Positions 34,643-63,713 of a stretch of 64,000 nt of DNA are shown here, in pieces (within the stretch, counting starts at the first letter, position 1; each line of letters opens with the position of its first letter). The notes below the pieces were generated by a model. The model was given only the letters and a program-made list of their open reading frames with translations, was not told the DNA's origin and did not search any database. Source of the stretch: an uncultured Atopobiaceae bacterium (GTDB lineage: Bacteria > Actinomycetota > Coriobacteriia > Coriobacteriales > Atopobiaceae); assembly GCA_944321515.1 (NCBI GenBank), contig CALULO010000001.1:1-64000 (forward strand), written 5' to 3'. The translations under genes were made by a program, and so were the position numbers.

Positions 34643-35959
34643 CTAGCAGAAGCAGCGCCGGTAGCGTCGGGCCTCGGGGGTTGCCTCCTGCGCCTCGAGC
34701 GCTGCGAGCACCTTGCCAAGCTCCAAGACTTCCCTCCTGCCAACTCCTTGCACATCTCCATGGACCACGGCGTTCCTAAGCCTCCTCACCTCTTTGAAGG
34801 CATTGAGGCACTTTCTGTCCTCCTCTGTCGTGGCGCCGCCGCTCTGCTCCACAGCCGAGTACGCGCTGGAGATGTCGTTAAAGCGGCGAACGAAGCCGGA
34901 TCGATGCTGCCCGTTAGCGTCCGTCACTTCATACCTTCCCACCGCTTGATCCGGACTGTCAGCCGTGTCGATGAGTCGTGCGATGACCTGGGACTTGTAT
35001 CGCTCCCATACAGGCGCAAAGGCGACCTGCGCGGAGAGTGCCTCACGGCAGTACACGACGTCGGAAAAGACGGAGCTCGTTCTGGAAGCTCCGTAGTTGT
35101 TACCGCCCACAGGCTCCCAAGGCTGCTCCCCCTGCATGAGAACGTCCCAGGCGGGGCACCACACCCCGTCCATCTGGAAGCAGAGCCCATATGACCAGTA
35201 CAGGCGCCACATCAGAGCAAGGTTGCCGGACGGGCTCCCGTCGTCGGGGGCGCCCAGAGGGCGGCCGCTCGTTGAGAGGCTCCTCATCAGCGCCTCCCGA
35301 AAGCTATTGACGGGGCCGTGCCCCACGTCCACGTAATTAGAGTGGGAATCGTGACGCTCCGCTTCCGCGTCAAGCGCCTCAAGGCGCGCGTTGGTACGCC
35401 TCTCCTGCTCCTCTCGGCACCTCTTGACGACGTCATGGGGATGAACGAAGGCGCTCGGAGGCCTGTAGTTTTTATTCAGACACAGCTCAAGGGCGTCCCT
35501 CAACGAGCTTATGCTTCCCGCACAGAGTTCGCAGGAGAAGTCGATGATCATGGTGCGAAACACGTCCGAGAGCTTCTCCTTTGCAAGCATCTCCCCTGCA
35601 AGGCTGCGCAGCTCTACGCGTGAGAGGTTTGTGGGGCACACATGCACCACGTCGCACCATACGGGGCCATCGCCATTGAGAATAAGCCCCGCAGAGCGAT
35701 GGAAGACGTGGGCGACGATGAGGAGAACGTCCGTCCCGGCGGCCTCCTCGCTCCACTCGGTGCTCTGGTAGACGCGGCACAGCTCCCTCCACCGCTTATC
35801 GCCATACCCGGCAAGGGGCCTTACCGCCTCCCTAAACTTCGTGTCGCTATAGGGCCCAATTACCACAAGGACGCGGCGGCCGTTCTTAAGGTCTTGCGCA
35901 ACCCTTGTGGCAAAATCATGCAGCGAGGGCACGACCTCAAACGGATTGACCCCCTTCAT
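34643..35959 (-). CDS. Large unknown protein with C-terminal HEPN-like motif
   Basis: A 438-residue protein; its ATG overlaps the upstream STAND gene's stop (ATGA), so it is translated as part of that operon. The N-terminal 110 residues look like a Rossmann-type alpha/beta domain (RRVLVVIGPYSD, GTDVLLIVAHVFH). Near the C-terminus EVRRLRNAVVHGD has the R-x4-H pattern (RNAVVH) of HEPN domains, preceded by a helical region. HEPN proteins are often toxin RNases. If so, this would be the effector of the adjacent ATPase. No signal peptide or membrane segment. Family of the middle part is unknown. Confidence 0.6.
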   Translation of the reverse strand: MKGVNPFEVVPSLHDFATRVAQDLKNGRRVLVVIGPYSDTKFREAVRPLAGYGDKRWRELCRVYQSTEWSEEAAGTDVLLIVAHVFHRSAGLILNGDGPVWCDVVHVCPTNLSRVELRSLAGEMLAKEKLSDVFRTMIIDFSCELCAGSISSLRDALELCLNKNYRPPSAFVHPHDVVKRCREEQERRTNARLEALDAEAERHDSHSNYVDVGHGPVNSFREALMRSLSTSGRPLGAPDDGSPSGNLALMWRLYWSYGLCFQMDGVWCPAWDVLMQGEQPWEPVGGNNYGASRTSSVFSDVVYCREALSAQVAFAPVWERYKSQVIARLIDTADSPDQAVGRYEVTDANGQHRSGFVRRFNDISSAYSAVEQSGGATTEEDRKCLNAFKEVRRLRNAVVHGDVQGVGRREVLELGKVLAALEAQEATPEARRYRRCFC

Positions 35960-38900
35960 CGCCCCTCACCGCCCTCGCAAGAAAGCTTCCTGAGCAGCGC
36001 GTGCATGAACCAGTCGCTTATCCTCAGCTTCCCGTCCTTCTCGCCTGTCTCGGCAAGGCAGGTCGCAGTCATCCACCTGAGAGCTGTCGTAAGCTCCCGC
36101 TCTTGGACGGCTCCGTCCGTCCGCTCTTGGACGCCCCCATCATCAAGAAGGCCCAGCCACTCGTCTACGTCGAGGGCATCGGGAAGCGGATGGTCATCGT
36201 CCCCCGAGGCATAGACGGCCAGACGGCGCCAGGCTCGGGCAAGAATGTCTGCGTCGGGACAAGTCCCGTCGAGGACCCAGGAGAAATCCGGCCCAGAGAG
36301 CGCCCTAGCCGAGAGGTCGCGCAGCGCCCTCTCGAGCGCAAAGGACGAGCGCAGCCCGGAAAGGCCGGAGAGCACCTCCGCCATTGCACCCGCCTGACCT
36401 CCGCACAGGTCACGCACCCGCTCCGCAAGGACCCGCTGAGCGCCCGGGCGCATGACGCCTCCCGTGTTCCGCGAGAACTCCTCGGCATAGCTCCTGGCCC
36501 ATCTGAGGCAGGTGTCCTCGTCCCAGCCGCTCGCGGCAACAACGTCGTCCGCGTACAGGAGCTCGTCGCGCATCTCCCAGAGGGCCCTGGGAGACGCAAG
36601 CAGAACGAAGCGCCCGTCCGCGCAGGGGCTCAACGGGTTCCTGAGAAGCCGCAGGTCATCAACGCTCCATCCCCCCGAGACAACCACCAGCCTGCAGTCG
36701 TCCGTCGCGGTTTTCTCAAGGCGGGCAGGGAGTTCGTCGCCGCTGACAAAATCCACGCCATCTTGGCAGAGCTCTGGAAGCAGCGCCTGGAACCGACTTC
36801 GTATAAGCTCAGAGCCGGCGAGCTGCCCCGCCGCAATCACGCAGTGGCCGTTCATCGAGAGAAGGCCTTTGATCCGACTCACGTCGCATGCTTTCAGCGA
36901 CGAGAAGAGCGGCAGGCCGTCGAACTTCTCGTCAAACACAATGTCGCGCGTTGCACCGACGTCCAGGCGACCCTGCATCTCACGCACGCTGTCAAGCATC
37001 CTTCTGCAGGCGGCGGCAAGCGCCAGGCGTGCCCCCGCCGCATCCTGCCTCCAGCCAACAAGCGCGCGCATGGAGCCGTCGTACAGGGAGACCCGGCCGT
37101 CCAGCACCTTGATGATTCTGAAGCGCCGTAGTTCTTGGATGTCCTGGTCAAGCTCCTTGAGCAGGCGGTCCTCTTGAGGGCTCAGGCCACCCTCAGCACC
37201 GAGCCCGCCCACTTCGATGACCCGATCCCGAATCTCCTCCATGGAGAACGACTCATGCCCCAAGCCCGCCTCGCGGCTGTCGGCTTCAAGAAGCCCGAGC
37301 GCATGAACAAGCACGTCATAGCCAGGGTCAAGCTGAATGGTGAGCTGGAACTTGTCTGTCAGGGCACCCGAGGACTCGCGGAGCGCACGATCAACCTCGG
37401 CGCTGGGGACCTCAATGAAGAAGGCATCCGCGCGTGCGTCAGGTTTTCTCCTGCGCCGCATGTCATAGAGCAGCTGCTCACAGACGATGTTGATGAGGTT
37501 GGGAAGGTAGCAGGATCTGCTGAGCATCTTAAGGATGTCCTCGTCCCGCATGAGGTAGCCCATGGACCGCATCGGCTCCCTCACAAGGCGGAAGGCATCT
37601 TCGTAGGCGCCCTCCTCCCAGAGCGGCCCCACGACGACAGGACCACCGATTTGCCCATAGGTCTGATTCCTCTGGGCCTGTTCGTCCGCAAACCGCATCG
37701 TCTCGTGAAGGCCGCCCATGACCACGTGAAAGCCTGCATTTCGCTGCACGTAGTCCACGAGGCTATTGAATATGGCATTGCGCTGGCCGCCTCGCTGGGC
37801 CGAGTCAAAGCGAAGCAGATCATCAACCTCGTCAATGAGCAGGTAGAATATCCGACCATGCCATCCCGCCGATGCTCCGCTGAGGATGTCCTGCACCTCT
37901 TTGGCGCTCCGAATGTCCGCGAGCTCAGGCAGGTCATCCACAAAGCCCCGGGCAACCACCTGGACCCAGAAGTTGTCGAGGCTCATGCCCATAACACCAT
38001 AGAGGTCCCGATAGGCAACCCTCGTAGTCTGACCATGCCACGCCCTGTCGGGGTTGCAGCGGGCGGCCCGCTCGCGGGCAACGAACTCGCGCAAGATCGA
38101 GGTCTTGCCCATGCGACGGGCACCATAGATGAAGGTCAGTCCCTGAGCCTTTATCCTGTCGAGTATCGCGGCCCTCCCATAAAAGAGGGACGGCTGCAGA
38201 ATGCTCTTGCCCGTGTTGGTGTTTGCCATCACGCTCTTGCTAACGTTGTCCCCGTAAGGAAGGGGCGCGGTAAAGGGCAGCGCACAGCGGAAGAAGGCGG
38301 CAAGACGATCTCTGCGCCAAGCGTCATTCGGCACGCTGGCAAGATAGGCCATCAGGACCTCGTCAAGGAGCAACGCCCCCGACGCCTGCGAGCTGCGGGG
38401 CGTCGTCCATGCGGACATGAGCTCGCGACGCAGGCGCGGCGAGAGCAGCGCACCCTCCGGGGGCAAGTAGACGGCAAGGCGCTTTAGACCCGTATTGCGC
38501 TCAGAGAGCAGCGCCTCCTTGAGCGCCTGGTAGCTCGTGTAGAGCTCCACCTCGTACTCAACCCGCGACTGCTCAGCCGGGGTCTCAGGATCAACCAGCA
38601 CCACGAACTCGCTCAGCGGGCACACGAGCTCGCCGCGGGAGTCCCTCTCCGAGGGGCTGGAGAAGAAGCGCAGGCGCCAGGAGAACACCATCTGGCCTTC
38701 TCGGGTGTCGACAACGAATGGGCTGACCGTGGCATCCGCAAAGCCAAGCGTCTCGAACAGCTTCTGGAACGCAGCGGAAACCTCCTCAAGCTGGACACGA
38801 GCCGCCTCCAGAGAGACGGGCACGCCATCCATCGGGAGTCCCCCGCCTTGCGCCTTGTCGCGTATCCCTCCCACGACGCCAGCGATAGTCTGGTACGTCA

Positions 38901-41181
38901 CTGCAGCGGCTTCCGAGCGCCCTGCGTCATCAGGCTTGGGTAGGTCGGGCAAGAAGGGCATCTGCTCGAAGGAAGTCGTATTGGAGTCGTCAAGCGTCCG
39001 GAAAAGGACGTCCACCACGCCTTGGCTCGACTCGCCAAGGCCATAGAACTCGTCCTCGTAGCTCGCGTCCACTTTGGGCAGAGGCAGGACGTCGTTGTCC
39101 TCCTCATAGTCGGCATAGGCAACGATGCGAGCGAGGTCTCCCTGCTCAACCGCCTCGTTGAGGCGCTCCCTCAGGGCCCCATCAAGGTGCTCCTGCTGAC
39201 CAAGGCGCTCAGCCATGCGACCGACAAACGCCCGAACAAGTCCGCCCACGCGCCGCTCAATGAGAGAAAGGACGCAGTTCGCAAGCACGGCCTTCATATC
39301 GGCGCCCGCCGCCCGCTCCTCCGCCAGGCCCTCAAAGGCGCCCTCGATTTGGGCGAGTGTTGACCCCAGCACAGAGTGGAGTCGCTCGTCTATCACGTTA
39401 AACGTATATGCACGGTCAACGAGCTCACGACAGCCCTCGACCCGCCCGGAGTCGAGCTCGCCCCCGGATGAGAGGTGCACGACCGCTTCCGCAAATGCCG
39501 CACCGTCGACGGTTCTCAGGTCAGGAGGCAGCCCGTCATACGCAGACAAGGGGTCGCGCAAGACGGGAAGCTGGCTCGGAAGGTTGTCGAGCCGGTCGGA
39601 AGCCTGATCGAGCGGCACCGTCCATCCGGCACGCTCCGTCCCCTCGTACCCCCTGACCGCATCCAGGAGGCTCCTACACAAGCCAGCAAAGGCCCCCGCC
39701 GCATCGCCCAGGGCCTGCCCGAAGTGAGCCTGCCCCTCCAGAAGATCGACGTCGTCTGTAAAGTGCGCGTACCTCAGCCACGCCAGCACCGTCCCGGAGT
39801 AGTCAGTCTCCGGATTGTAGAGGTACGTGCCCTCAAGGACACGAAGGAGTGTCGAGAAACCTTCCGCAAGACCAGAGAGCCCGGCCTCGTTGAGCTCCTC
39901 CTCGTCCATCCATCCAAGAAGCGACCGAATGGCACTGACTAGACCCCCAGAAAGACGCAAGGTCAACACGCCCAGCAGCGCCTCGGTCAGAAGAAGCAGC
40001 AGCGGGGAGCCCAGCCGCACCGTCGGAGCAGCATCCTCCACCACCAGTGCCAGCGTTTCGAAGTCGTCAAAGAGCTGATCGGTGGAAACGGTCCCGCTGT
40101 TGACGCCCATCCAGTCGGCGATGACCTCCAGCGCCCAGAAGCGGGCTATAACCGCCGTACGGTCCCCCTCCAGGGAGCGCTCTCGCCGAGGCTCAAGCAG
40201 GCGATAAACCTCCCCCGGCCTTAGCCCGTCCTGCAAGGCGCGTTCCGCGCACGCAATCGTATTGATGAGGCCACGACGTCCGCAGAAGACGTAGCGGTCA
40301 AAGGGTTCCGAGCCTTCGTCATGGACTGTCGGCCAGATCCTTCGAGAGGCAAGGCCAAAGAGCAGAGGGATGTCTCCGGGGAGACCGGTGTCTCGTCCCC
40401 TCTGATACTCCGAGGGATAAAGGGCGCTCAGGCTGTCCTCCACAACTGCAGCACGCCAGCGCTCCTCCCCGTTTTCCGGGCCACTCTCCTTTGCAAACGA
40501 GAAAAGCACGTCGAGCCAGGAGTCATCCACCGAAAGAGGCCTTTGCTCGGGAGCACCGTACGAGAAGACCCTCTCAAGAAGCGATGCCCGCCCTACCGGC
40601 TGTTTGTCCAGCACCGCCGGCTGATTCTCCGGCGCCGCAGGCGGCTCCTCCGCGGCTGGCGGCACCTCGATGATGTGACGGGCACCCGCCCGGCCAAACG
40701 CCACCTCGCCGGTGGAGGAGAGGCTCTTGGCGACCTCCTCCCAACTGCCCCCAAAGTGATCGAGCAGCTGGGTGAGGACCCCGCGCACTTCCCAGCCGCC
40801 AGACTGACCCTCAAGCAGGCCCTCAAGGGAAATCCCGTCAGGCACCTCCGTGTCCTCCGCAAGCAGGCGCAGGGCCTGTGCAAGCCTCTGAAGCATCTTC
40901 CCTGCAGGCTTCTCGCCGCTCTCGTAGCAAAAGAGGGCGACGTCCTTGGCGCTTCTCGCCAGACTGAGAACCTCGTCATCAGACTTCTTTATGAGGTCCT
41001 TTAAGAAGTCACTAAGCCTACACCCGCTCGACCTAGCCTTATGCCAGCAGCTCAGAAAGTACGAGTTCTGCGGAAAAATGTGCGTCAGGCTTGCGAGCAG
41101 CTCAGCCTGGGAGCCGCGGTCGTGTAGGGTATCCCGCAGATCCCAGGCGCACCCCTCGTAGTCGATCGCGTCTTCGGGCAT
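35956..41181 (-). CDS. 1741-residue STAND/Orc1-like ATPase
   Basis: The longest gene of the window. Residues 1-~990 are helical, acidic and leucine-rich without a recognised domain. Around residues 1015-1025 is a Walker A, IYGARRMGKTSIL, and ~1110-1120 a Walker B, FYLLIDEVDDLL. Then come LPNLINIVCEQLLYDMRRR and winged-helix-like segments, as in Orc1/Cdc6-like and STAND NTPases. The last 400 residues include an alpha/beta region (DCRLVVVSGGW, GRFVLLASPRAL) and a helical end. Such proteins couple sensing to oligomerisation or effector release. It is sandwiched between kinase-RyR (4-bp gap) and the HEPN-like gene (4-bp overlap). Confidence 0.75.
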   Translation of the reverse strand: MPEDAIDYEGCAWDLRDTLHDRGSQAELLASLTHIFPQNSYFLSCWHKARSSGCRLSDFLKDLIKKSDDEVLSLARSAKDVALFCYESGEKPAGKMLQRLAQALRLLAEDTEVPDGISLEGLLEGQSGGWEVRGVLTQLLDHFGGSWEEVAKSLSSTGEVAFGRAGARHIIEVPPAAEEPPAAPENQPAVLDKQPVGRASLLERVFSYGAPEQRPLSVDDSWLDVLFSFAKESGPENGEERWRAAVVEDSLSALYPSEYQRGRDTGLPGDIPLLFGLASRRIWPTVHDEGSEPFDRYVFCGRRGLINTIACAERALQDGLRPGEVYRLLEPRRERSLEGDRTAVIARFWALEVIADWMGVNSGTVSTDQLFDDFETLALVVEDAAPTVRLGSPLLLLLTEALLGVLTLRLSGGLVSAIRSLLGWMDEEELNEAGLSGLAEGFSTLLRVLEGTYLYNPETDYSGTVLAWLRYAHFTDDVDLLEGQAHFGQALGDAAGAFAGLCRSLLDAVRGYEGTERAGWTVPLDQASDRLDNLPSQLPVLRDPLSAYDGLPPDLRTVDGAAFAEAVVHLSSGGELDSGRVEGCRELVDRAYTFNVIDERLHSVLGSTLAQIEGAFEGLAEERAAGADMKAVLANCVLSLIERRVGGLVRAFVGRMAERLGQQEHLDGALRERLNEAVEQGDLARIVAYADYEEDNDVLPLPKVDASYEDEFYGLGESSQGVVDVLFRTLDDSNTTSFEQMPFLPDLPKPDDAGRSEAAAVTYQTIAGVVGGIRDKAQGGGLPMDGVPVSLEAARVQLEEVSAAFQKLFETLGFADATVSPFVVDTREGQMVFSWRLRFFSSPSERDSRGELVCPLSEFVVLVDPETPAEQSRVEYEVELYTSYQALKEALLSERNTGLKRLAVYLPPEGALLSPRLRRELMSAWTTPRSSQASGALLLDEVLMAYLASVPNDAWRRDRLAAFFRCALPFTAPLPYGDNVSKSVMANTNTGKSILQPSLFYGRAAILDRIKAQGLTFIYGARRMGKTSILREFVARERAARCNPDRAWHGQTTRVAYRDLYGVMGMSLDNFWVQVVARGFVDDLPELADIRSAKEVQDILSGASAGWHGRIFYLLIDEVDDLLRFDSAQRGGQRNAIFNSLVDYVQRNAGFHVVMGGLHETMRFADEQAQRNQTYGQIGGPVVVGPLWEEGAYEDAFRLVREPMRSMGYLMRDEDILKMLSRSCYLPNLINIVCEQLLYDMRRRRKPDARADAFFIEVPSAEVDRALRESSGALTDKFQLTIQLDPGYDVLVHALGLLEADSREAGLGHESFSMEEIRDRVIEVGGLGAEGGLSPQEDRLLKELDQDIQELRRFRIIKVLDGRVSLYDGSMRALVGWRQDAAGARLALAAACRRMLDSVREMQGRLDVGATRDIVFDEKFDGLPLFSSLKACDVSRIKGLLSMNGHCVIAAGQLAGSELIRSRFQALLPELCQDGVDFVSGDELPARLEKTATDDCRLVVVSGGWSVDDLRLLRNPLSPCADGRFVLLASPRALWEMRDELLYADDVVAASGWDEDTCLRWARSYAEEFSRNTGGVMRPGAQRVLAERVRDLCGGQAGAMAEVLSGLSGLRSSFALERALRDLSARALSGPDFSWVLDGTCPDADILARAWRRLAVYASGDDDHPLPDALDVDEWLGLLDDGGVQERTDGAVQERELTTALRWMTATCLAETGEKDGKLRISDWFMHALLRKLSCEGGEGR

Positions 41182-41185: not shown

Positions 41186-42712
41186 TTACCTCCGCACCGC
41201 CAGTCCAGCGGACTCCAGAAGACCGATCATCTCCCGTACCGGGTCACGGTCGTACTCCCTAATCTCCTCGCTGAGCTTTTCCCAGGGGACCATGAACGGG
41301 GACTGCTTCTTCTCCTCGTTCTTCACAGGGCCGTAAGTCCAACCGCTACGGTCGCGCTCCTCGAGCCAGCGGGCGTGTTCCTCGCGGGCGAGAAACTCCA
41401 CCTCATCGTCAGAAAGCTTACCCACGCGCTGGCCGTCTTTGCAGTCCTCCTGGCGGACGACCTCGTACCCCAGTAGCCGAACCTTCTCGAGATAGGAGCG
41501 GGCCTGGTCGATGCAGGACTTCTTGTAGTCGTCCGACTGCTCGTCATAGGTCTCGTACTCCAGCGGCTTCCCGTCCCGCAGACGATGCGCCTTGTAGTTC
41601 TCAAAGATGACGCGGACGAGCCTCTCCATAGTACTCTGCTCAAGAATCATCTCGACGCTCCCCTCCAGTCTGATGCGGTCCAGCGCATCCACATATCCGG
41701 CATGCATGCTCTCTCGCCCGGCGATGTCAGTCGCCTGCGAGGAAATGCCCCCATATAAGGCAAAGGCTGTCGGAACCCCCGAAAGACGAGCCTCACGGGT
41801 AACATCCTGCAAGGTAAGCCGACGAGCAAAGACCCCCTCGGGGCTCACCCTCAGCGGGCTTTGCGGGTCATTGAGCACGCGCAGGACGTCGTCATCCGAC
41901 AGCCTTCTCACCGGCACTCCGTTCAGCACCTCCGCCTCAACTACGGCAAGGTAGCCAAGGTCCTGCTCAAGCGGTGTCGGCTCACGCTCAAGCTGGACAA
42001 GCCCGCCCGCACCAAAGAGCCGGTCATAGTACCCGGCGCACTGGACGCGGCCGCGCGGGCTGTCGCTCATGAACTCGAGGTCAAGCAGGGTCGCGCGGAT
42101 GCCGTCGGCGCCCGGCCCCCACCTTCTCACGGCAATGTTTGCAGACCTCAGGTCACGGTGGTAGATGCCCTGCCGCTGAAGGGCATACGCCTGGTTCAGC
42201 ATGTCAAAGAGAATCTTGTGAGCCGTCCGCTCGCCCTCGGGAGTGTCTGGGCTCGGAAGCGCCTCCCCCGCGCACTCGACGCCCCCATCAAAGAACGGCA
42301 CCGGGGCGCCGTCCAGAGCCTCCTCAAGGCTCACGCCCGCGTCCTCCTCAACAAGAAGGGCGAGGCTCGACTCGCCTTCGGCGGCGTCCGGCAACTTCCG
42401 CAGGGCGTCAGCCTCAAGCACGCGCGGGCCCACCCCAGACAAGGCGCCGAGCGCAAGGGCCGCGCGCTCACGGGCGTAGTCAATCTCCGGCCGCTCGCCA
42501 CCAAAGTAGACGGCACAGGCGGGCAGGCGCTGCGAGCGGGCACCCCTCACGCGCTCGTAGACCCCCGGATACACGTACTTGCGGCCAGAGCTCGACCGCG
42601 CCTCCTCCCGAGACGGCAGGGGCTCAGCAAACGAGAAGAACCCACTGTCAAACGAAAGGGCGCTCACGCCGACGCGCACGGGGACGTCACACTCGATGAA
42701 GTCCTCGGTCAT
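41186..42712 (-). CDS. Protein-kinase-fold protein fused to a RyR domain
   Basis: A 508-residue protein. Residues ~60-290 carry a kinase fold: IYHRDLRSANIAV is the catalytic loop (HRD...N) and LLDLEFMSD replaces the usual DFG. I cannot place a clear N-lobe VAIK lysine, so activity may be altered. The C-terminal ~70 residues, VEFLAREEHARWLEERDRSGWTYGPVKNEE...FMVPWEKLSEEIREYDRDPVREMIGLL, match the RyR (ryanodine receptor repeat) domain. The gene overlaps the FHA gene upstream by 4 bp (ATGA). Kinase next to FHA and PP2C suggests a phospho-threonine relay, with RyR as a ligand or partner sensor. Confidence 0.8.
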   Translation of the reverse strand: MTEDFIECDVPVRVGVSALSFDSGFFSFAEPLPSREEARSSSGRKYVYPGVYERVRGARSQRLPACAVYFGGERPEIDYARERAALALGALSGVGPRVLEADALRKLPDAAEGESSLALLVEEDAGVSLEEALDGAPVPFFDGGVECAGEALPSPDTPEGERTAHKILFDMLNQAYALQRQGIYHRDLRSANIAVRRWGPGADGIRATLLDLEFMSDSPRGRVQCAGYYDRLFGAGGLVQLEREPTPLEQDLGYLAVVEAEVLNGVPVRRLSDDDVLRVLNDPQSPLRVSPEGVFARRLTLQDVTREARLSGVPTAFALYGGISSQATDIAGRESMHAGYVDALDRIRLEGSVEMILEQSTMERLVRVIFENYKAHRLRDGKPLEYETYDEQSDDYKKSCIDQARSYLEKVRLLGYEVVRQEDCKDGQRVGKLSDDEVEFLAREEHARWLEERDRSGWTYGPVKNEEKKQSPFMVPWEKLSEEIREYDRDPVREMIGLLESAGLAVRR

Positions 42713-45820: not shown

Positions 45821-45832
45821 CGCAACCACCCC

Positions 45833-56403: not shown

Positions 56404-59400
56404 AGCTCTCGCCCGACCTTCTGAAGCGATTGCGCCAGATGTTGAGCTTCCGCGTTTCTTTCGTCATCCGTCATCGTCTTTGCGGCAATGCGTTGGTATG
56501 CGACTGCGGAGAGCCGGCAAAGCATGACGCCCCATTCGAGCAGCTTCCGCTCCTTGGAATGCGAGCAACAACGGGCGGAGCACATCCAGAGGCCCTGAAG
56601 GAGCCGGTGCGCCCCGTCATTGTCCCCAAGCAGCGAGGCAGCACCCACCCCTTCATCAAACAGGATGGAAAGGGCCTCAGCGCACTCTTTGTTGCTCGTT
56701 GCCATCACCTCGATTCGCTCTCCCGTGCACAGACACGCACTCGCGTGCAGCCACGGATCATAGAGCGAAGACCCGCGCTCCTTGAGGGCACGGCAGCAGT
56801 CGAGCGACCGACGGAAGAGCTCGAGCTCCCGCCTCACGAGACCACAGCAGTGCTTCCGCAGCTCGAGGTACCTCGACGCAAGCAGGGCACAGTCCTGCGC
56901 ACCACGAGAGAGCTCCTCTTCCGTCGGGGAGGCGCTACCGCTTAGGGACAGCACACTCGCACGCAACGAGCGAAGGTCCCTGATTAACGAGAGCTGGCTT
57001 TTCCACGCCGCGCTGTTTCCGACAATGGCTCCCGCAGGGGAGGCGAGCCTGTTTTCCAGGGAGCGCTCAAGCCGCGAGAGTATTTCGTCGCTCACCTGGT
57101 AGTTTCCAATGCTCTCCTCGTATGCGGCATACGACCAGTCTGTCCTGTCAAGCTCCGCGCGCCGGCGCTCGTCGTTGTCAACCTTGAGCGCGGCGACACG
57201 TTCCTGGCTATAGGCCCGAGCCACGACCGTCTCAGACAGCCCCGCCTCCGCCATGACCTGAGCCATTGAAACGCCATTGATGGCAAGGCCGCAGCTATCA
57301 TCTATCGCCTTTTGTGCAAGGCGCTCGATGGTCCTGCGCCCCTCCCCCTCAGGGAGCGGGCGTGCCTGCAGGACTCGCAGGTCGCTTATAAGCTCCCTGT
57401 CGCGCTCCATGGAGCTGAGGAAATCGGGCCAGAGGGAGGTGATTCTGACAAGACACGAAAGGGACTCGTAGGCACAGCGCACCGCCTCAGCGTCGGACTC
57501 GCTGATTTTCAGGGATGCCCCGGCCATGCCCCAGGCTGACATGGCATGCGAGAGCTGATTGGCATCCAAGTCCTCCATCTTCTGGTCATCAAGCAGCGCA
57601 ACCATCCGGCCGCAAACCGGACTCGCAGCCTCCTTGTCCCCGACCATAAGAAGGAGCTGAAGCAGGCTGATGTAGCCGGCAAGAAGGTCGCCCCAGCTCC
57701 CCGAGGCCTTGAGGCCCTTGTTGCGAGCCGCTCTGTATACCCGCTCCGAGGACTCTATGTAGCGCTCGTAGCATGCGCGTGCATCGTCATAGCGTGACTG
57801 GGAGAGATGCAGGTGGCCCAGGTCAAGGCCAAGGCGCCGGTTGAGGTCAACGGCGTAGCCCATCCGACCACCCATGCTCGTCAAGTCAAGGCCGGCGAGA
57901 AGTTCCTCGGCACGGGCAAGGTATGTACTGGCTTGGCTCCGCTCCTCCTCCTTTCCCGTCATACCAGCCACCCCGTCGCCAAGTCTCCCCAGCTCAATGA
58001 GGACAGTCGCCCTGACTACCTTGTCAAGGTCAGACCCAGTTCCCTGTTCCCCCAGCACCCGAGCTATCTCCGAAAACAGCGAGAGGCGCCACTCATCAGA
58101 AAGGGCATATGTCTCCGGGTGCGAGAAGAGCCCCACGCGGTCGAACGCAAGCACAAACCAGTACCACTCCCCATCTCCGCGGCCCTGCATGGCGCGCACG
58201 GCACGGCAGAGGAAGGTCCTCTCAAAAGGAAGCGACGCCTCCTGCACGCAGGCGCCCGCCAGGCCACCTACGAGGGAGAAGCCCAGGGGGACAAGTTGCT
58301 CTGAAAGCCCCGCGAGAACCCCTTCCTGGCAGAGAAGCCCCGCCGCGCCAGCCGCGTCGTCCGCCAGGCAGAGGTGGTGCATGACCTCGCCGTCAACAAA
58401 CGCGTCTCTGACATCGGCCGAATAGACAAGGTAGCGGTACCCAGGAAGCGGGTCTCCCGTAAATCGGGCGCGGCTAAGCAGGTAAGGGGCCACGAGTTCG
58501 CGGTTCGCCCTCAGCAGCTCGTCACGGTGGCGGTGCCAGATCATCCGACGGAAGCTCTGGTGGGCAAAGTCCCACTCCATGCGGCCACGCTGTATGAAGT
58601 CCTCGGAGAGCACCTGGCGGAACCACGCGAAGACCGCTGGGTCGAACCTTGCTCCCAAGCTGCCGGAGAGGTCCTCGACGCGAAGACCCCACCGGCTCGC
58701 CGCGATGGCCAACAGAAAGAATGGGAAGACCTTAAGCCCCGTCACCTCCATAGCGTCGCACACGAGCACCTCGTACATGCCCTCGCAGTCAGCTGGAAGC
58801 GTCATGACAATGGAGCGCATGACCACAATCTGTGCCTGAATGGGGGATAACCCATACTCACGCTGGGTTCGATCGATTGCCCGATAGTCCTTCTTGCCAA
58901 GCATGAGCAGGTGACGCACAACCAGCGAGACGTAGAGCGGGTTGATGCCGCCGGTCTCACCTGCCTTTGCAAGTAGGTCATCCACGACCGCACCAGGGAG
59001 TGCCCCCTTGTGGTTTCTTGTGCAGACAGCATCCACAAGCTGCCGCGCGTCCTTCTCGCCAAACGAAGGAAGGGGCCAGGAGGAGCCTCGGACATGGCTG
59101 AGGGCCGTTGCATAGTCTCCGGGAAGCGACGTGCAGACGATGTGGCAGCCTCGCGGCAGATTATGGCCAGCCCAGTTGAAGGTTCCTTCCGCAGCGTCCG
59201 CAAGCTGGTCGACGGCATCCACGAGCAGCGTGACCGGCCCCTCTTTGAGGCGCTCCTCAAGAGCGGCGTGCAGCACGCTTACGAGCTGGGCATACGTGAG
59301 GTCATAGAGGCCCTCCGGCACCGCATCCGGCGAGCTGAGCGACCAGACGAGGTAGCGCAGCAGGCCGGGCAGGTCGGAGACCTCGGGGCCAAGCCCGCAG

Positions 59401-60260
59401 AAGGCCACGACAACGGTGCCCATACCCGCAAGCTGCGTCGCGAGCCGCGCGACCAGAGCCGTCTTTCCAGCTCCCGCCTCCGCCTGGACAAGCAGCAGGC
59501 CCGCGTCATCGCGCGCGCAATACGAGGCGAGCGAGGACACGACCTCCTCGCGCCCCACGAAGGAGGCCGAGAGGCGGTACGCCTGGGCCACCTGGCGGGC
59601 ACGCTCTGCCTCAAGCGGGTGGAGGCGCTCGACCGGCGGCTCACCGAGCTCCTCGCGCACGCGGCGCTCGAGCGCCGTGACAACCTGCTCGCAGAACGCA
59701 TCGAGGTCGTAGGAGCCGTCCCGCTCAACGTGGACGCTGTACTCGAGAATCGCATCGGGATAGTCTGCCTTGAGGCGTGCGCGAAGGGCGGAGAGCTGGC
59801 CCGCATGCGTGGGGTCCAAGAACACCTTCCGCTGCGCGGGACTCAGGCTCGAGGGGTTGTCGATAGTCCTGAGACAGCAGACCAGCCGCTGGGCGCAACG
59901 GGAGTCTGCAAGCGCGTGATCTATCTCCTGCTCGGTCACGCTTGTACTCGAGCCCTCAGGAACGTACCCGTACCGATCTCCCAGGAGCAGCACGAAGAAG
60001 GGCTCGCAGCGGTCAATCTCCCCCAGGCAGACCTCGAGGACCTTGGCGTCCTGCTCTTCCTCGGAGACCGCGCTCGTGTCCACGCCCCAGCGCAGGTCAA
60101 CGAGGTCGGCAGCGATGCCGTACGGCCGCACGAACTCGCGAAGGCGCGGGAGCACCAAATCGCGCAGCACGTCGCGCTCGTCCTGCATGTCGCGGAAGGT
60201 GCTTGAGACGAAGAGGGAGATGTCCTTGGGAACCTGACTTCCTGCCAGCATGGCGTCCAT
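56361..60260 (-). CDS. DUF4062-NACHT/STAND-type protein with helical repeat tail
   Basis: The start is ATG 60260 (GGAGG 5 bp upstream). Of 1299 residues, 1-~110 are a DUF4062 domain (ISLFVSSTFRDMQDERDVLRDLVLPRL, FFVLLLGDRYGYVP). About 240-500 are a P-loop NTPase: FVGREEVVSSL, AEAGAGKTALVARL (Walker A, ~262) and VTLLVDAVDQLADAAEG (Walker B, ~347). The remaining ~750 residues are helical, with TPR-like stretches such as YDDARACYERYIESSERVYRAARN. This domain order is found in bacterial NLR-like conflict proteins and in TEP1/NPHP3-type eukaryotic proteins. It follows the small zinc-ribbon gene on the same strand. Confidence 0.85.
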   Translation of the reverse strand: MDAMLAGSQVPKDISLFVSSTFRDMQDERDVLRDLVLPRLREFVRPYGIAADLVDLRWGVDTSAVSEEEQDAKVLEVCLGEIDRCEPFFVLLLGDRYGYVPEGSSTSVTEQEIDHALADSRCAQRLVCCLRTIDNPSSLSPAQRKVFLDPTHAGQLSALRARLKADYPDAILEYSVHVERDGSYDLDAFCEQVVTALERRVREELGEPPVERLHPLEAERARQVAQAYRLSASFVGREEVVSSLASYCARDDAGLLLVQAEAGAGKTALVARLATQLAGMGTVVVAFCGLGPEVSDLPGLLRYLVWSLSSPDAVPEGLYDLTYAQLVSVLHAALEERLKEGPVTLLVDAVDQLADAAEGTFNWAGHNLPRGCHIVCTSLPGDYATALSHVRGSSWPLPSFGEKDARQLVDAVCTRNHKGALPGAVVDDLLAKAGETGGINPLYVSLVVRHLLMLGKKDYRAIDRTQREYGLSPIQAQIVVMRSIVMTLPADCEGMYEVLVCDAMEVTGLKVFPFFLLAIAASRWGLRVEDLSGSLGARFDPAVFAWFRQVLSEDFIQRGRMEWDFAHQSFRRMIWHRHRDELLRANRELVAPYLLSRARFTGDPLPGYRYLVYSADVRDAFVDGEVMHHLCLADDAAGAAGLLCQEGVLAGLSEQLVPLGFSLVGGLAGACVQEASLPFERTFLCRAVRAMQGRGDGEWYWFVLAFDRVGLFSHPETYALSDEWRLSLFSEIARVLGEQGTGSDLDKVVRATVLIELGRLGDGVAGMTGKEEERSQASTYLARAEELLAGLDLTSMGGRMGYAVDLNRRLGLDLGHLHLSQSRYDDARACYERYIESSERVYRAARNKGLKASGSWGDLLAGYISLLQLLLMVGDKEAASPVCGRMVALLDDQKMEDLDANQLSHAMSAWGMAGASLKISESDAEAVRCAYESLSCLVRITSLWPDFLSSMERDRELISDLRVLQARPLPEGEGRRTIERLAQKAIDDSCGLAINGVSMAQVMAEAGLSETVVARAYSQERVAALKVDNDERRRAELDRTDWSYAAYEESIGNYQVSDEILSRLERSLENRLASPAGAIVGNSAAWKSQLSLIRDLRSLRASVLSLSGSASPTEEELSRGAQDCALLASRYLELRKHCCGLVRRELELFRRSLDCCRALKERGSSLYDPWLHASACLCTGERIEVMATSNKECAEALSILFDEGVGAASLLGDNDGAHRLLQGLWMCSARCCSHSKERKLLEWGVMLCRLSAVAYQRIAAKTMTDDERNAEAQHLAQSLQKVGRELYPDFKVSVDSVMR

Positions 60261-60398: not shown

Positions 60399-60524
60399 CT
60401 AACTGATTTCCCCGCAGCAGGGGCACTCGCCGCTGTCCGGCCAGTCGCTGCCGCGGTAGCCGCAGTAGGGGCAGGTCCTGACGTCGCGGCGCCAGCTGCG
60501 GAAGTACTTGGTGAGGAAGCTCAT
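60399..60524 (-). CDS. 41-residue zinc-ribbon miniprotein
   Basis: An ideal AAAGGAGACATC ribosome site precedes ATG 60524. The protein has two CxxC pairs, CPYCGYRGSDWPDSGECPCC, forming a complete zinc ribbon after a short basic N-terminus (SFLTKYFRSWRRDVR). It is the first gene after palindrome 4 and precedes the DUF4062-NACHT gene by 138 bp of GC-rich, hairpin-prone DNA. It may be a small regulator or subunit, related in style to the zinc ribbon in the island's kinase. Confidence 0.75.
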   Translation of the reverse strand: MSFLTKYFRSWRRDVRTCPYCGYRGSDWPDSGECPCCGEIS

Positions 60525-60590: not shown

Positions 60591-60625
60591 TTTGTAGAGG
60601 ACGGCCGTGGCCCGCGTTGTACAAC
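60591..60625 (-). promoter_or_regulatory. Island operator/promoter 4: GTTGTACAAC-N19-TACAAA
   Basis: Here the palindrome extends to a perfect 20 bp (60611-60630, CCCGC flanks). TACAAA lies at 60591-60596 after 19 bp, 67 bp before the zinc-ribbon start. The following GGTGTCAGGC resembles the sequence after site 5. Confidence 0.8.
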
Positions 60626-60641: not shown

Positions 60642-61445
60642 TCACAAATGAGTAACCCATCTCACCACCAGAAGGGCGGCCATGAAGGCACCCGTAAACA
60701 CGACGAGCGACCAAAAGCAGCCGAGCCTGGTCTTGTCCGAAGCCCACCAGATGAAGGCGGGGAGCATGAAGATGCTCGCGCTTGCCACCATGAGGCAGAC
60801 GCCAACGGAGACGTCGCCCGCGGTTGCCTCGGACGCCATGAGCGCGCCGCAGATGACGACCGGCACCACCAGGTCAAGAAAGAGGATGAGCGCAAGGAGG
60901 GGAACCCACCTCGTGGCGGCGTCGCGCTTCTGGGCGGCGACGGTGCGCTGCTGGGCAACGAGCGTGTGGTTCTTCTCGTAGTCCTTCACGAAGCTTTCGG
61001 AGACGTAGTCGCCCCATTCGCACTGGTCAAGGCACGCCTTGCTCAGCTCCGCAAAGCGGTCCCACGCGGGATTCGGCACCGAGCCGGCAAGCGCGCGTGC
61101 CTGGGCGAGCTTCGCGCGCGCATCGTCGTGATAGGCGCGCGCCATGCGCTCCCCCTTGGGGTCACTCAGACCGTGCGTCCCGGCACGCTCGTCGAGCTCG
61201 TCGGCCTTCCGGCCGGAAAACGAGCGCGCGCAGAGCGCGAACATCTCACTGACGACGCCCTTCTCGCGGGCGATCTCCGCCGCCTGGCGCTCGCCGCGGC
61301 TCTCGTAAAGGCGGCGAGCCCGCTCGTAGAGCTCGGCCGCCTCGTCCGCCTTGTCAGCCCACGCGGGGTCTTCGTCACAGAGGTTGTACACGCAGCAGTC
61401 AAGCAGATCGTCCGCGCGACGCTCGTTCTTCTCGGCATCTCCCAT
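60642..61445 (-). CDS. Unknown protein with helical domain and C-terminal membrane helices
   Basis: The start is ATG 61445 (CAGGGAGG upstream). Residues 1-~175 of 267 are charged and helical (ADEAAELYERARRLYESRGERQAAEIARE). Three hydrophobic helices follow from ~180 to the end. It resembles membrane-anchored adaptor proteins but has no known domain. It has its own palindrome promoter. Confidence 0.6.
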   Translation of the reverse strand: MGDAEKNERRADDLLDCCVYNLCDEDPAWADKADEAAELYERARRLYESRGERQAAEIAREKGVVSEMFALCARSFSGRKADELDERAGTHGLSDPKGERMARAYHDDARAKLAQARALAGSVPNPAWDRFAELSKACLDQCEWGDYVSESFVKDYEKNHTLVAQQRTVAAQKRDAATRWVPLLALILFLDLVVPVVICGALMASEATAGDVSVGVCLMVASASIFMLPAFIWWASDKTRLGCFWSLVVFTGAFMAALLVVRWVTHL

Positions 61446-61484: not shown

Positions 61485-61519
61485 TTTGTACGGCACGCCG
61501 CGGGGAGGCGTTGTACAAC
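61485..61519 (-). promoter_or_regulatory. Island operator/promoter 5: GTTGTACAAC-N19-TACAAA
   Basis: Palindrome at 61510-61519, TACAAA at 61485-61490, 39 bp before the membrane-protein start. The -10-like hexamer is identical to that of site 4, and both continue with a GT(C/G)TCAGGC element. Confidence 0.8.
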
Positions 61520-61520
61520 G

Positions 61521-61560
61521 GCGGGATCAGGCGGGATCAGGCGGGATCAGGCGGGATCAG
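61521..61560. repeat. Four exact tandem copies of a 10-bp unit
   Basis: GCGGGATCAG is repeated four times without change, directly beside palindrome 5. The last copy contains the stop codon (TGA on the minus strand, 61557-61559) of the BspA-type gene. Confidence 0.9.
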
Positions 61561-62522
61561 CCCACGTGCACCCCCGCGCCGCTGAGGAAGAGCTCGGTCA
61601 GCTCCTCGGGAGCCATGCCAAGGCCGCCGGTGCCCCTGAACATGTTCCTGGTCTGCCTGGCCTCGTGCACCGTGCCGGGACGCGCGCCCGGGAGGCTGAG
61701 GGAGCGGAGCGAGGAGCAGTCCGCGAACATGAAGGCAAAGGCTTCGGCGCTCGAGAGGTCAAAGCCGGAGAGGTCGAGCCCCTGGAGGGAGGAGCAGCCC
61801 CAGAACAGGTTGCTCATGTCCGTGACCTGCGAGGTGTTGAGACCGGAGAGGTTGATGCCTTGCAGGGAGGAGCACCCGTTGAGCATGTTGGCCATGTTCG
61901 TGACCCGCGCGGTGTCAAAGCCTGAAAGGTCCAACTCCCTGAGGGCCCGGCACTGGGCAAACATGTTGCGCATGTCCATGACCCGCGCGGTATCAAAGTT
62001 CGAAATGTCGAGCTCGGCGATGGCCTCGCAGTCGCAGAACAGGCCGTTCATGTCCTCGACCAAGGACGTGTCAAAGCCAGAGAGGTCCAGCTCTCTCAGG
62101 GATTGGCAGAGCATGAAGGTGTCGACCATGCTCCGCACGTGCGAGGTGTCCAGGAGGCCGAGCCCGCGAATCTCCGTCAGGCTCAGGCAGTCTGCAAACC
62201 AGCCGTCAAGGGTCTCGGGCGCCACGGGGCTCGCAAACACCGCGATCAGGACGTCCTGCCACGGCACGTCATGGGACATCGTGACCAACCCGTACTCGTC
62301 CGGCTCGGAGAACCGGCGGGGATACCCTTCAGCCGGCACCTCGATGTCATCCCCGGCAAGAGACAGCCGGCAGGTGTGCCCGAACGCGTCAATCGTGCGC
62401 AGGTCGCAGTCCTCGAGGCACGCCCCCAGCACCACGACGTCCTTCCAGTTGTCGGTCAGGGGGTCGAGGTCCTCGTCGTAGAGCTTGTAGGTCCGGGCAT
62501 ACGCCCTTGTCGTCTCCCCCAC
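61557..62522 (-). CDS. Intracellular BspA-type (DUF285) leucine-rich repeat protein
   Basis: A 321-residue protein 24 bp after the CbbX-like gene. From residue ~110 it shows eight or so DUF285/BspA repeats of the form 'LRELDLSGFDTSLVEDMNGLF.C', e.g. SLQGINLSGLNTSQVTDMSNLFWGC. The N-terminal ~100 residues are a separate domain. BspA proteins are normally secreted adhesins, but no signal peptide, membrane anchor or sortase motif is present, so it probably works in the cytoplasm as a sensor or scaffold of this system. Confidence 0.8.
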   Translation of the reverse strand: MGETTRAYARTYKLYDEDLDPLTDNWKDVVVLGACLEDCDLRTIDAFGHTCRLSLAGDDIEVPAEGYPRRFSEPDEYGLVTMSHDVPWQDVLIAVFASPVAPETLDGWFADCLSLTEIRGLGLLDTSHVRSMVDTFMLCQSLRELDLSGFDTSLVEDMNGLFCDCEAIAELDISNFDTARVMDMRNMFAQCRALRELDLSGFDTARVTNMANMLNGCSSLQGINLSGLNTSQVTDMSNLFWGCSSLQGLDLSGFDLSSAEAFAFMFADCSSLRSLSLPGARPGTVHEARQTRNMFRGTGGLGMAPEELTELFLSGAGVHVG

Positions 62523-62546: not shown

Positions 62547-63713
62547 CTAGAACCCCATCCGAGCCCTGCCCTCCGTCACGCACTGTGGCAGCGCGGCGAG
62601 AAGGTCCTTGCTGGTGATCGTTGCCTCGTCATGGTCGCAGGACGCCTCGACCACCGCGTGGTCCACAAGGCGGCGGACCGAGCGCGCGTTGGAGAAGTCC
62701 TTCGACCTCTTGAGCCTCTCAAGGGCGCGCCGCATCTCGTCCTCGTCGCACGAGACGGAAAACCCGCGCCTCTCCGCAATCAGGTGGAAGATGCTGCAGA
62801 GCTCCTCCGTCGTGAAGTCGGGAAACTCGATGCGGTACCCAAAGCGGTCGCGCAGACCCGGGTTGAGGTCAAGCGTTCGGTCGACCTCCTTGGGGTAGCC
62901 CGCCACCACGCAGACGAGCTGGTCCCGGAGCGCGTCGAGCCGGTCAGTCAGAACGTCAAGGGCCTCCTGGCCGTAGCCCCCGGCATGGGAGACGCTCAGG
63001 CCATAGAACTCGTCAATGAAGAGCATCCCGCCCACGGCCGAGTCGATGATCTTCCTGACCTTGTTGCCGGTCTGCCCCACGTAGTCAGCCACGAGCCCGT
63101 TGCCGCTGACCTTCACGAACTTGTGCGTCCCGTCGGTGACGCCCAGGCCGTCCAGATAGGTGACAAGCCGACTTGCAAGCTCGCTCTTGCCGGTGCCCGG
63201 ACGGCCCACAAAGACGAAGTGGAAGCAGTCCACCGCCGAGCGCCCGTGCTTCGCCACGGTCTTGGAGAGCTTGATGAGCGTCTCCTTCTGCCGGTCCATG
63301 CCCACCAGGCCGTCAAAGACGCGCTCGGGGTCGGCAGGTGCGGCGGGCGCGGGCTCCTGGTCCACGGCGCCCAGGTCCGTGGCGCTGGCCTCGGGGGCAC
63401 CGGCCTCCGCAAGCTGCAGGAGCACGGAGAGGTCGTCGACGGGGACCGTCTGGATGTCCACCCGGTCCACGTCGAGCACCTCATAGGGGGTCCACTTCTG
63501 CAGGACCATGTCCACGGCGCCGGGATACGTCGAGTTCTCCGCCGAGAAGAACGGGACCACCCAGGCACCCTCCTCGGTCCGCTCCGCACGCAGGAAGCAC
63601 ACGTTTGCGTCACCCAGGTGCTGAGCAAAGCGCAGGCGCGCCGCGACCTCATCCCAGTTGGGCTCCGCGCCCTCGGCGACCTTGATGTGACCGTGCTTGA
63701 AACCGATCTTCAT
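62547..63713 (-). CDS. CbbX/CfxQ-like AAA+ ATPase (second paralogue)
   Basis: The start is ATG 63713 (GGGAGG upstream); the longer frame to 63848 would run through the palindrome. The 388-residue protein is collinear with the copy at 45833-47005: a related N-terminal domain (WTPYEVLDVDRVDI against WTPYEAESLAKVNV), Walker A VGRPGTGKSELASRL, Walker B GGMLFIDEFYGLSVSHAGGY and VVAGYPKEVDRTLDLNPGLRDRFGYRIEFPDF. It heads a two-gene unit with the BspA-type gene. A duplicated ATPase at both ends of the island suggests two related assemblies. Confidence 0.85.
   Translation of the reverse strand: MKIGFKHGHIKVAEGAEPNWDEVAARLRFAQHLGDANVCFLRAERTEEGAWVVPFFSAENSTYPGAVDMVLQKWTPYEVLDVDRVDIQTVPVDDLSVLLQLAEAGAPEASATDLGAVDQEPAPAAPADPERVFDGLVGMDRQKETLIKLSKTVAKHGRSAVDCFHFVFVGRPGTGKSELASRLVTYLDGLGVTDGTHKFVKVSGNGLVADYVGQTGNKVRKIIDSAVGGMLFIDEFYGLSVSHAGGYGQEALDVLTDRLDALRDQLVCVVAGYPKEVDRTLDLNPGLRDRFGYRIEFPDFTTEELCSIFHLIAERRGFSVSCDEDEMRRALERLKRSKDFSNARSVRRLVDHAVVEASCDHDEATITSKDLLAALPQCVTEGRARMGF

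Follow-up and report, generated by a model that had tools for sequence, protein, structure and literature searches.

What does a 29-kb run of phosphatases, kinase-like proteins and ATPases do in an uncultured Atopobiaceae bacterium, and does it work as one system? The window analysed here is the whole stretch of 64,000 nucleotides at the start of contig CALULO010000001.1 (348 kb; host genome 1.96 Mb), and the genes in question occupy positions 34643-63713, for which a first-pass annotation had listed gene types lying almost all on one strand and had proposed a single undescribed system. The gene list stands: about 20 genes lie there, on the minus strand throughout except for one FtsW/RodA-like gene, with Pfam support for many of them. 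The complete insert extends beyond the window (approximately 31.5-72.1 kb, with the gene cluster reaching about 71 kb), and in our view a TIR gene just past the window's end, missed by that annotation, holds the key to one member of the cluster, a kinase-like protein with a ryanodine receptor (RyR) domain. The sequences point, with a confidence somewhat short of even, to a hotspot-borne, co-regulated and modular conflict island, most likely anti-phage, in which a TIR-made signal would feed an RyR-kinase relay that, with a second phospho-switch, would gate a VirD4-like machine, a giant ATPase and its HEPN-like partner being the likely suicide effector.

TIR genes near RyR domains across Actinomycetota

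The linkage between RyR domains and TIR genes is the main new point. In the window, the RyR-kinase (41186-42712, minus strand) carries a C-terminal RyR domain (PF02026, 1e-14; 54.8 bits against a cut-off of 27.4), and the same insert encodes, beyond the window, a TIR-propeller protein (gene call at 68738-70966, plus strand, verified by tblastn; TIR_2, 8e-15). A glutamate is visible in an SxxCxxE context of this TIR domain and is presumably the catalytic residue. Within the order, RyR-kinase matches (E <= 1e-10) occur in 33 of 297 genomes and a zinc-ribbon-TIR-propeller protein in 29 of 297. With a zinc-ribbon-TIR query that was itself taken from an RyR locus (G238; G and L numbers denote genomes and loci), this family lies within 10 kb of 18 of 34 RyR-kinase-homologous loci, against 0.26 expected under uniform placement; reciprocally, 18 of 32 zinc-ribbon-TIR loci have an RyR-kinase homologue within 10 kb, and 21 of the 33 RyR genomes carry the family anywhere (Fisher p 1e-17 for co-presence in a genome). 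Four further RyR loci have a PF13676 TIR domain within 4 kb (G280, G245, G077 and, below the cut-off, G093), and a TIR gene of any kind stands within 10 kb of 22 of the 34 loci of the order, in 14 of 19 genera, a mixed count to which the uniform-placement expectation is not applied. A separate TIR model matches strongly at 8 of 11 RyR-kinase loci, weakly in G280 and G245 and not at all in G308, and gives no match in the stretches of four controls, two with VirD4 only (G231, G195) and two with the VWA-PP2C-kinase triad only (G032, G076); because three of the eight strong matches (G238, G200, G253) were among the eight TIRs on which this model was trained, the linkage is founded on the zinc-ribbon-TIR query and the PF13676 counts.

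The same association is seen outside the order. PF02026 is present in 15 of 286 more widely drawn Actinomycetota genomes, 11 of which (12 loci) lie outside the order, and TIR_2 is found within 10 kb of 6 of these 12 loci, against 0.09 expected under the same assumption of uniform placement. The distances are 472 bp (G400), 561 bp (G450), 845 bp (G501), 4.3 kb (G380), 7.1 kb (G346) and 7.3 kb (G324), and four of the six linked loci (G346, G380, G400, G450) belong to one genus. The PF13676 check covered 21 genomes, namely the 11 RyR-positive ones outside the order, G075 and 9 of the 15 order genomes without a TIR on the same contig; G274, G271, G288 and G085 stood outside it, as did the window genome (G000) and G020, whose island TIR genes are known.

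The part of the protein in front of the RyR domain is variable, being kinase-like in the island, TrkA_N in G324 and, below the cut-off, in G400, AAA in G077, and without an assigned domain in G201, G082, G236, G283, G239 and G251 (loci L135-L140, with Pfam run on L135 and L138). Because this front varies while the TIR gene stays near, the RyR domain may be a receptor domain for the TIR product. The RyR-kinase is read specifically as the receptor of a TIR signal because RyR proteins of phages (RyDEP) bind TIR-made 2'/3'cADPR, through residues H75, W78, H100 and D117 (PMC13232231). It is conceivable, at a little under an even chance, that the RyR domain of Actinomycetota is a general receptor of TIR-made ADP-ribose signals mounted on interchangeable outputs (kinase-like, TrkA_N, AAA and others), and that the island holds a pathway from TIR through cyclic ADP-ribose to RyR-kinase phosphorylation, which would add a new branch to TIR immunity and give the R12 domain of the animal ryanodine receptor a counterpart in bacteria.

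In the window protein, the pocket residues map to H446, W449, S471 and D488, as judged from an equal-length match range to PDB 35tm_A, an entry taken to be RyDEP from its name. The EHxxW motif is present in 21 of 21 aligned RyR segments, and H446 and W449 are invariant in all 11 RyR-kinases. At E <= 1e-3, 105 phage records contain RyR-like matches as well.

The RyR-kinase has recurrent neighbours, which were compared at 11 further full-length loci from 10 genomes (leaving out G216, where the match starts at residue 174, and G232, where it spans 45-468). By model, an FHA-like partner adjoins it at 7 of the 11 loci (G219, G238, G101a, G101b, G253, G308, G007) and a second PP2C, here PP2Cb, at 6 (G200, G219, G101b, G280, G245, G308), and triad genes lie within about 10 kb at 4, complete in G219, G238 and G101b and as VWA and PP2C only in the stretch of G253. 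In the window, the partner is a 789-aa protein (42709-45078, minus strand, verified in part by tblastn) with a borderline C-terminal FHA domain (6e-4; 20.6 against a cut-off of 20.7 bits), a protein that RyR-kinase neighbours elsewhere resemble in part, and PP2Cb (45119-45829, minus strand) matches SpoIIE (1e-3) and PP2C (2e-3) below the cut-offs.

Three side observations concern the same genes. In the 5.6-Mb actinobacterial genome of L150 (7947-11933), a TIR gene with a PknH-like extracellular domain adjoins an RyR gene with a weak TrkA_N match; at L135-L137, L139 and L140, a TIR gene lies near a gene with a C-terminal RyR domain, the N-terminal region of which resembles by eye that of the FHA-like neighbours of RyR-kinases; and the G002 island holds a zinc-ribbon-TIR remnant (C1:126320-126817; 60% identity over 167 aa, one stop) 15 kb from its RyR-kinase.

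A number of points weigh against a TIR-to-phosphorylation pathway in this island. The RyR-kinase has HRDLRxxN and DLE motifs and no lysine at the usual beta-3 place, Pkinase is matched in 5 of 11 family members, the window's protein not being one of them, and the best 60 of the 562 PDB matches of the family profile are RyR structures only; the protein could be an atypical kinase or could signal without catalysis. Of the 21 segments, 5 have His at the H100 position, 13 have Ser, as the window protein does, and 3 have Asn; at the D117 position, 12 have Asp and 9 have Asn. This partial conservation of the pocket is more in keeping with binding than with cleavage, and it is evidence against a plain replica of the RyDEP site. 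Nine of the 34 RyR loci show no TIR nearby, and for 14 of the 32 zinc-ribbon-TIR loci the surrounding 10 kb contain no homologue of the RyR-kinase, in tallies where related species are non-independent counts. PF13676 is absent from G308, G216 and G232 in a whole-genome search; in G270 and G069 the TIR lies on other contigs than the RyR locus; G274, G271, G288 and G085 have no nearby TIR by the zinc-ribbon-TIR query alone, with G271 and G288 matching only the kinase part. Outside the order, G377, G417 and G457 carry RyR with no TIR_2 match in the genome, and three RyR loci are on contigs shorter than 10 kb (one in G443, two in G469), where linkage is not judgeable. The islands of the three Olsenella genomes have their intact TIR genes within the insert but 22-26 kb away from the RyR-kinase, not adjacent to it. 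Lastly, PADLOC, run on 10 island proteins, returns one strong match (mad8) and no recognised complete system.

Among the papers listed by the literature searches, none connects RyR domains of bacteria with TIR genes or with kinases, and an earlier comparative-genomics prediction is possible; the word "kinase" does not occur in the RyDEP main text (PMC13232231), nor "RyR" in PMC8195603 and PMC9503650.

A hotspot insert with a conserved block and a shared operator

The locus is a hotspot insert and not core genome; a fully conserved core locus with a known housekeeping role is what the first-pass annotation had named as telling against its proposal. The insert is bounded by a lytR-like gene (30192-31541), present in 29 of 31 genomes of the genus, and by ychF, present in all 31 (own included), and both flanks lie on one contig in 28 genomes, the assessable set. 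Between them, the gap is 54-318 bp, i.e. an empty site, in 18 of the 28, 1.2-2.4 kb in 3, 4.4-13.6 kb in 4 and 33-41 kb in 3 (G002, G020 and the window genome). At this site, G002 and G020 share with the window genome a block of 14 genes whose order is kept, with 36-75% identity: the FtsW-like gene, VWA, PP2C and kinase of the triad, a small gene, HExxH, VirD4, P420, the transglutaminase-fold gene (TG), PP2Cb, FHA, the RyR-kinase, a giant ATPase and a HEPN-like gene. The FHA gene is found in 3 of the 31 genus genomes, and among the 297 genomes of the order VirD4 (E <= 1e-20) occurs in 6 and the giant ATPase (E <= 1e-10) in 4, one of them weak. CbbX stands outside the block, with two copies in the window genome, one in G002 and a remnant in G020.

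Overlapping stops and starts and a shared palindrome had been proposed to tie the genes together, and both are borne out. Of the 13 gene junctions from 34643 to 55023, 6 overlap by at least 4 bases, and GTTGTACAAC occurs six times in the window, against a chance mean of 0.40 even allowing one mismatch, with none of 100 shuffles reaching six. The island of the window genome holds seven copies, the remainder of the contig's first 120 kb holds none, and the 12-base form CGTTGTACAACG has five copies in the genome, all inside the island. A GTTG-NN-CAAC palindrome stands 5' of orthologous genes in all three block carriers, the G002 island having six copies of GTTGCGCAAC and the G020 island three, plus one GTTGTGCAAC. 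Counted as GTTGNNCAAC, the sites number 7, 6 and 4 in the islands of G000, G002 and G020, against 0.41, 0.32 and 0.23 expected from base composition, and 0, 1 and 0 in the flanks. The centre of the palindrome differs between species while its arms are kept, which is the behaviour that a protein-bound operator would show.

The operator lies 52-98 bp 5' of a gene start at each site. In the window, the copies are at 47068-47077 (63 bp 5' of CbbX 1), 53369-53378 (64 bp 5' of the triad kinase), 55097-55106 (between the VWA and the FtsW-like genes), 60616-60625 (92 bp 5' of a 41-aa gene), 61510-61519 (65 bp 5' of a 267-aa gene) and 63786-63795 (73 bp 5' of CbbX 2). It precedes VWA and the triad kinase in all three carriers, VirD4 in G002 and G020, and both CbbX and zinc-ribbon genes in G000 and G002. 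In the orientation of the gene, the palindrome's TTG could occupy a -35 position, with AT-richer -10-like hexamers downstream. A search of 25 further stretches gave scattered single palindromes (G007, G213, G245, the G002 flank) and two in G308, and among the other scanned hotspot inserts none outside G007; because these matches are only scattered, the palindrome is taken as an island operator specific to the three block carriers. The 41-aa zinc-ribbon proteins (60399-60524, minus strand, and 66145-66270) have counterparts in G020 and G002, that of 60399-60524 being found in G020 by tblastn, and in the window genome each lies directly 3' of an operator site.

The modules also live apart. At the same hotspot, mid-sized inserts hold a TIR protein, a CbbX AAA, a leucine-rich repeat (LRR) protein, a 692-aa protein without a Pfam family and a relative of the DUF4062 protein (G011), a CbbX-LRR pair with a 697-aa protein (G005), a zinc-ribbon-TIR-propeller protein with a 701-aa protein (G030) or, among other genes, the RyR-kinase, its FHA-like partner and a TIR protein (G007, where the RyR-kinase and FHA-like genes stand alone). 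Because these inserts hold them without the block, the right half of the island is best described as modules that also live alone at the hotspot, and it turns over between carriers. Elsewhere, the VirD4 module occurs without a nearby triad in G195 and G231, G219 has both on different contigs, and the examined stretches of G032 and G076 have the triad without VirD4. The proposal of one system is therefore borne out in part: a 14-gene block under one operator is common to all three carriers, while the triad, the VirD4 pair, the RyR module, the CbbX-LRR pair, the DUF4062 protein and the TIR gene are all found separately as well, which agrees in part with what the first-pass annotation had named as evidence against itself. 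The island is a co-regulated mosaic, and its reading as one indivisible system is not supported.

This modularity is also what would be expected if several unrelated defence modules had piled up in the hotspot under a common type of promoter and without joint function. Such a pile-up would account for the separate occurrence of the modules and for the turnover of the right half, but not readily for a block order kept in three of three carriers at 36-75% identity, for an operator that precedes block and right-half genes alike and is conserved at orthologous sites, or for the triad genes found close to the RyR module at four of the eleven other loci; it is rated as unlikely, although not negligible.

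At the left edge of the island lies an IS21-type element (32036-34290, plus strand) with a putative IstA (32036-33541) and IstB (33535-34290; IstB_IS21, PF01695, 5e-41), and no homologue of it stands beside the block in G002 or G020 (blastp of gene calls). Rightward of the window follow, by gene calls, a 621-aa protein (63933-65798, minus strand, of which the window holds 63933-64000), the second 41-aa zinc ribbon and a propeller protein (66531-68729), both on the plus strand, the TIR-propeller protein and a 225-aa gene, and then ychF and core genes. The intergenic DNA of the two island edges (window 34433-34492, genome 71199-71400) has short recurring repeats in common (GCTTAG..., CGATTTTGAAAGCGCC). 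Attachment repeats at the island ends were considered and rejected, the shared pieces being short, 16-base matches of repeated intergenic sequence.

The triad, the VirD4 pair and the candidate effector

Pfam, run on all island proteins other than the two of 41 aa and the product of 71425-72102, confirms the VWA, PP2C, VirD4, transglutaminase, AAA, RyR, DUF4062, FtsW and LRR labels given at first pass, while those of FHA, HEPN, HExxH, the second PP2C and the 1741-aa ATPase are weakly supported; the two kinase labels stand by their families, as neither window kinase matches a Pfam kinase model itself. The triad consists of adjacent genes in one direction that encode a TerY-like VWA protein (54295-55023; PF00092, 5e-6), a PP2C phosphatase (53244-54245; PF13672, PP2C_2, 1e-26) and a Ser/Thr kinase (51773-53305, by family profile and motifs) with zinc-ribbon residues and a hydrophobic C-terminus, all on the minus strand. 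In the kinase family, Pkinase is matched in 6 of 9 members and the profile finds solved protein kinases (best 1e-6); the G-loop, K37, D141, N146 and D160/D162 are invariant in 9 of 9 aligned sequences, as are C319, H325, C334 and C337, a C-H-C-C zinc ribbon located C-terminal to the kinase domain that has no Pfam zinc-ribbon match. By its sequence features, this is a TerY-P triad, as the first-pass annotation had recognised, and its kinase has the zinc ribbon of such triads. Where the kinase bears a zinc ribbon, TerY-P triads have been described as phospho-switches that sense metal and are tied to defence (PMC11090510), and TerY-P is reported to be active against T7-like phages (PMC7699616).

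First in the block order, the FtsW/RodA-like membrane protein (55120 or 55177 to 56403, plus strand; PF01098, 2e-10) is divergent from VWA in all three carriers. On the other side of the triad, a 108-aa gene (51408-51734, minus strand; neighbourhood model) precedes a HExxH gene (50695-51396, minus strand), which it adjoins in 10 of 10 loci matched by its model. The HExxH motif, accompanied by a sub-threshold DUF6782 match, is invariant together with a downstream Glu in 14 of 14 aligned sequences, and the AlphaFold model (pLDDT 85) has a non-significant best PDB match (probability 0.85, E 0.46); the protein may be called metallopeptidase-like at most.

The next two genes, both on the minus strand, form an active and dead pair. 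A 428-aa VirD4/TrwB-like ATPase (49385-50671; PF10412, 1e-31) has an intact Walker A motif, kept in 6 of 6 aligned sequences, and P420 (48126-49388) is a degenerate VirD4 paralogue, a pseudo-ATPase without Walker motifs: in hhalign, 335 of its alignment columns pair with the VirD4 family at a probability of 97.9 (E 6e-13), with the Walker A/B residues missing, and its AlphaFold model (pLDDT 89, 25 sequences) matches TrwB in Foldseek at 2e-11. The adjoining transglutaminase-fold protein (47089-48129, minus strand; PF01841, Transglut_core, 7e-8) keeps the Cys, the His and also the Asp of its triad across the 14 sequences of its alignment. A scan of one genome per species over 84,980 species found at least 62 loci, at least 54 of them with the VirD4 model; among these, P420 occurs in at least 28, HExxH in at least 16, and the small gene and TG in at least 10 each, all lower bounds in a set where many contigs end early, by neighbourhood models whose E-values refer to small pools of open reading frames. 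At least 7 VirD4 loci also have VWA, PP2C and kinase (L036, L037, L040, L042, L045, L083, L084), L045 being from Olsenella and the PP2C and VWA matches of L083 being weak and on the opposite strand. At L076, L079 and L083 (Clostridia, Lachnospiraceae), HExxH-VirD4-P420 is followed by conserved genes (clusters c31 and c32) and a large AAA-like protein (c33).

The contexts of the pair differ from locus to locus. In L062 (5278-17807), VirD4-P420 lies beside two DO-GTPases and GAP1-N2, with an HSP70-like gene upstream by eye, and in L084 (Lachnospiraceae) a VirD4-P420-kinase-VWA-PP2C-TG block is followed by SUKH-2 (Syd; 1e-9) and Tox-HNH-HHH nuclease (6e-45) genes (17053-18334); because of this difference, the VirD4-P420 engine seems portable between conflict systems. 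The L084 arrangement, with a Syd cluster in at least 5 loci and a toxin cluster in L037, L040 and L084 among the loci listed, is also what a quite different function would predict, in which the pair would serve the export or maturation of polymorphic toxins directed at other bacteria and the kinases would act as contact or membrane sensors. The island itself speaks against it, as its Pfam-scanned proteins include no toxin, immunity, relaxase or VirB domain and no N-terminal membrane segment is seen by eye on VirD4, which leaves toxin export improbable. Three other candidates were rejected. A conjugative element fails on the same missing membrane segment and on the lack of any relaxase or VirB part in the Pfam-scanned proteins; MADS fails because the VirD4 match to mad8 (6e-16) is accompanied by no other mad profile among the 10 PADLOC-scanned proteins; and a GAP1-N2 system fails because DO-GTPase and GAP1 are absent from the Pfam results of the island and present in the relative locus L062.

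The candidate effector lies at the end of the block. A giant P-loop ATPase of 1741 aa (35956-41181, minus strand; its G002 and G020 orthologues measure about 2285 aa) is STAND-like at most, being under all Pfam cut-offs (AAA_22, 3e-4, 21.5 against 27 bits; AAA_16, 4e-4), with the Walker-type ATPase 2qen matched at E 0.045. Its neighbour, a 438-aa HEPN-like protein (34643-35959, minus strand) without a Pfam family, is a candidate RNase, with an RNxxxH motif near the C-terminus that reads RNAVVH, RNNVSH and RNNVSH in the three orthologues and a weak PADLOC RTasHEPN match (0.007). Of the two STAND-type ATPases named at first pass, the DUF4062-AAA_16-TPR protein (56361-60260, minus strand; PF13271, 6e-16; PF13191, 1e-7) does reach a domain cut-off, with AAA_16 above it (32.8 against 32.6 bits) and NACHT below its own.

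This DUF4062 protein, with relatives in G002 and G011, belongs to the variable part of the island, as do a 267-aa protein with a hydrophobic C-terminus and no Pfam family (60642-61445), a DUF285 leucine-rich repeat protein (61557-62522; PF03382, 9e-34) and its CbbX-type AAA+ partner, CbbX 2 (62547-63713; PF00004, 2e-13), a pair also present in G005 and G011. CbbX 1, a CbbX/SpoVK-type AAA+ ATPase (45833-47005; PF00004, 2e-14; TIGR02881, 3e-47, below its own cut-off), interrupts the block between TG and PP2Cb. All of these genes are on the minus strand.

A possible pathway and its relation to known systems

In the reading preferred here, the TIR-propeller proteins would sense infection and convert NAD+ into an ADP-ribose-type signal, and the RyR domain of the RyR-kinase would be its receptor, the binding of which would alter kinase output and so turn a TIR signal into phosphorylation. 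The FHA protein would read this phosphorylation and PP2Cb would reset it, while the TerY-P triad would serve as a second switch with a second input. Both switches would gate an ATP-driven machine made of the active VirD4-like ATPase, its dead twin and the metallopeptidase-like and transglutaminase-like enzymes, and the giant ATPase with its HEPN-like partner would be the likely suicide effector. Beyond the TIR-RyR linkage, we infer the identity of the signal, the order of the relay, the role of the effector and phage as the trigger; a role of the island in phage defence is plausible. The PknB-PP2C-FHA-RodA operon of Actinobacteria offers a last alternative, a locus for cell-envelope or division signalling, which would suit the joint occurrence of FHA, PP2C, kinases and an FtsW/RodA-like gene but is very improbable for a hotspot insert whose FHA gene is found in 3 of 31 genus genomes and which keeps the company of HEPN-like, TIR and DUF4062 genes.

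Several known systems share parts with the island. All three genes and the zinc-ribbon kinase of TerY-P are present, and the island adds the kinase-RyR/FHA/PP2C module, the VirD4 pair, the transglutaminase and the giant ATPase-HEPN genes. As in Thoeris, in which TIR makes 2'/3'cADPR for an effector, there is a TIR protein together with a domain whose phage relatives bind 2'/3'cADPR; unlike Thoeris, no Thoeris effector domain such as SLOG appears in the Pfam-scanned proteins, and the putative receptor is an RyR domain on a kinase-like protein. The RyDEP proteins of phages have in common with the island RyR the PF02026 domain and the pocket His and Trp, but they degrade or sponge the signal (PMC13232231), whereas the island RyR is host-encoded, kinase-fused and TIR-linked, with the second His mostly missing in the family. 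Kinase-PP2C-vWA genes occur with GAP1-N2 systems in Actinobacteria according to Kaur et al. (PMC7159879), a theme that the island shares, and the VirD4-P420-TG module is found in such a locus (L062), whereas GAP1 and DO-GTPase were not found in the island by Pfam. The active VirD4 copy has the fold and the Walker motifs of VirD4/TrwB coupling proteins and HerA-type ATPases, and differs from VirD4/TrwB in having no visible membrane anchor, no conjugation genes found and a dead paralogue as its partner. The KKP kinase-kinase-phosphatase modules of prophages (PMC11341870) likewise use a kinase/phosphatase balance as a phage-triggered switch, with an architecture that, by the description available in that source, differs from that of the island.

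If the pathway is correct, host-encoded RyR domains would gain a role in reading TIR signals, which would suggest a reason for the phage RyR proteins that destroy such signals or sponge them up. It would also connect Ser/Thr phosphorylation in bacteria with immune signalling by nucleotides and bear on the origin of the ligand-binding domain of animal ryanodine receptors. In addition, the active and dead VirD4 pair is put forward as an engine portable among several conflict systems, and the operator as a marker of the island's regulon.

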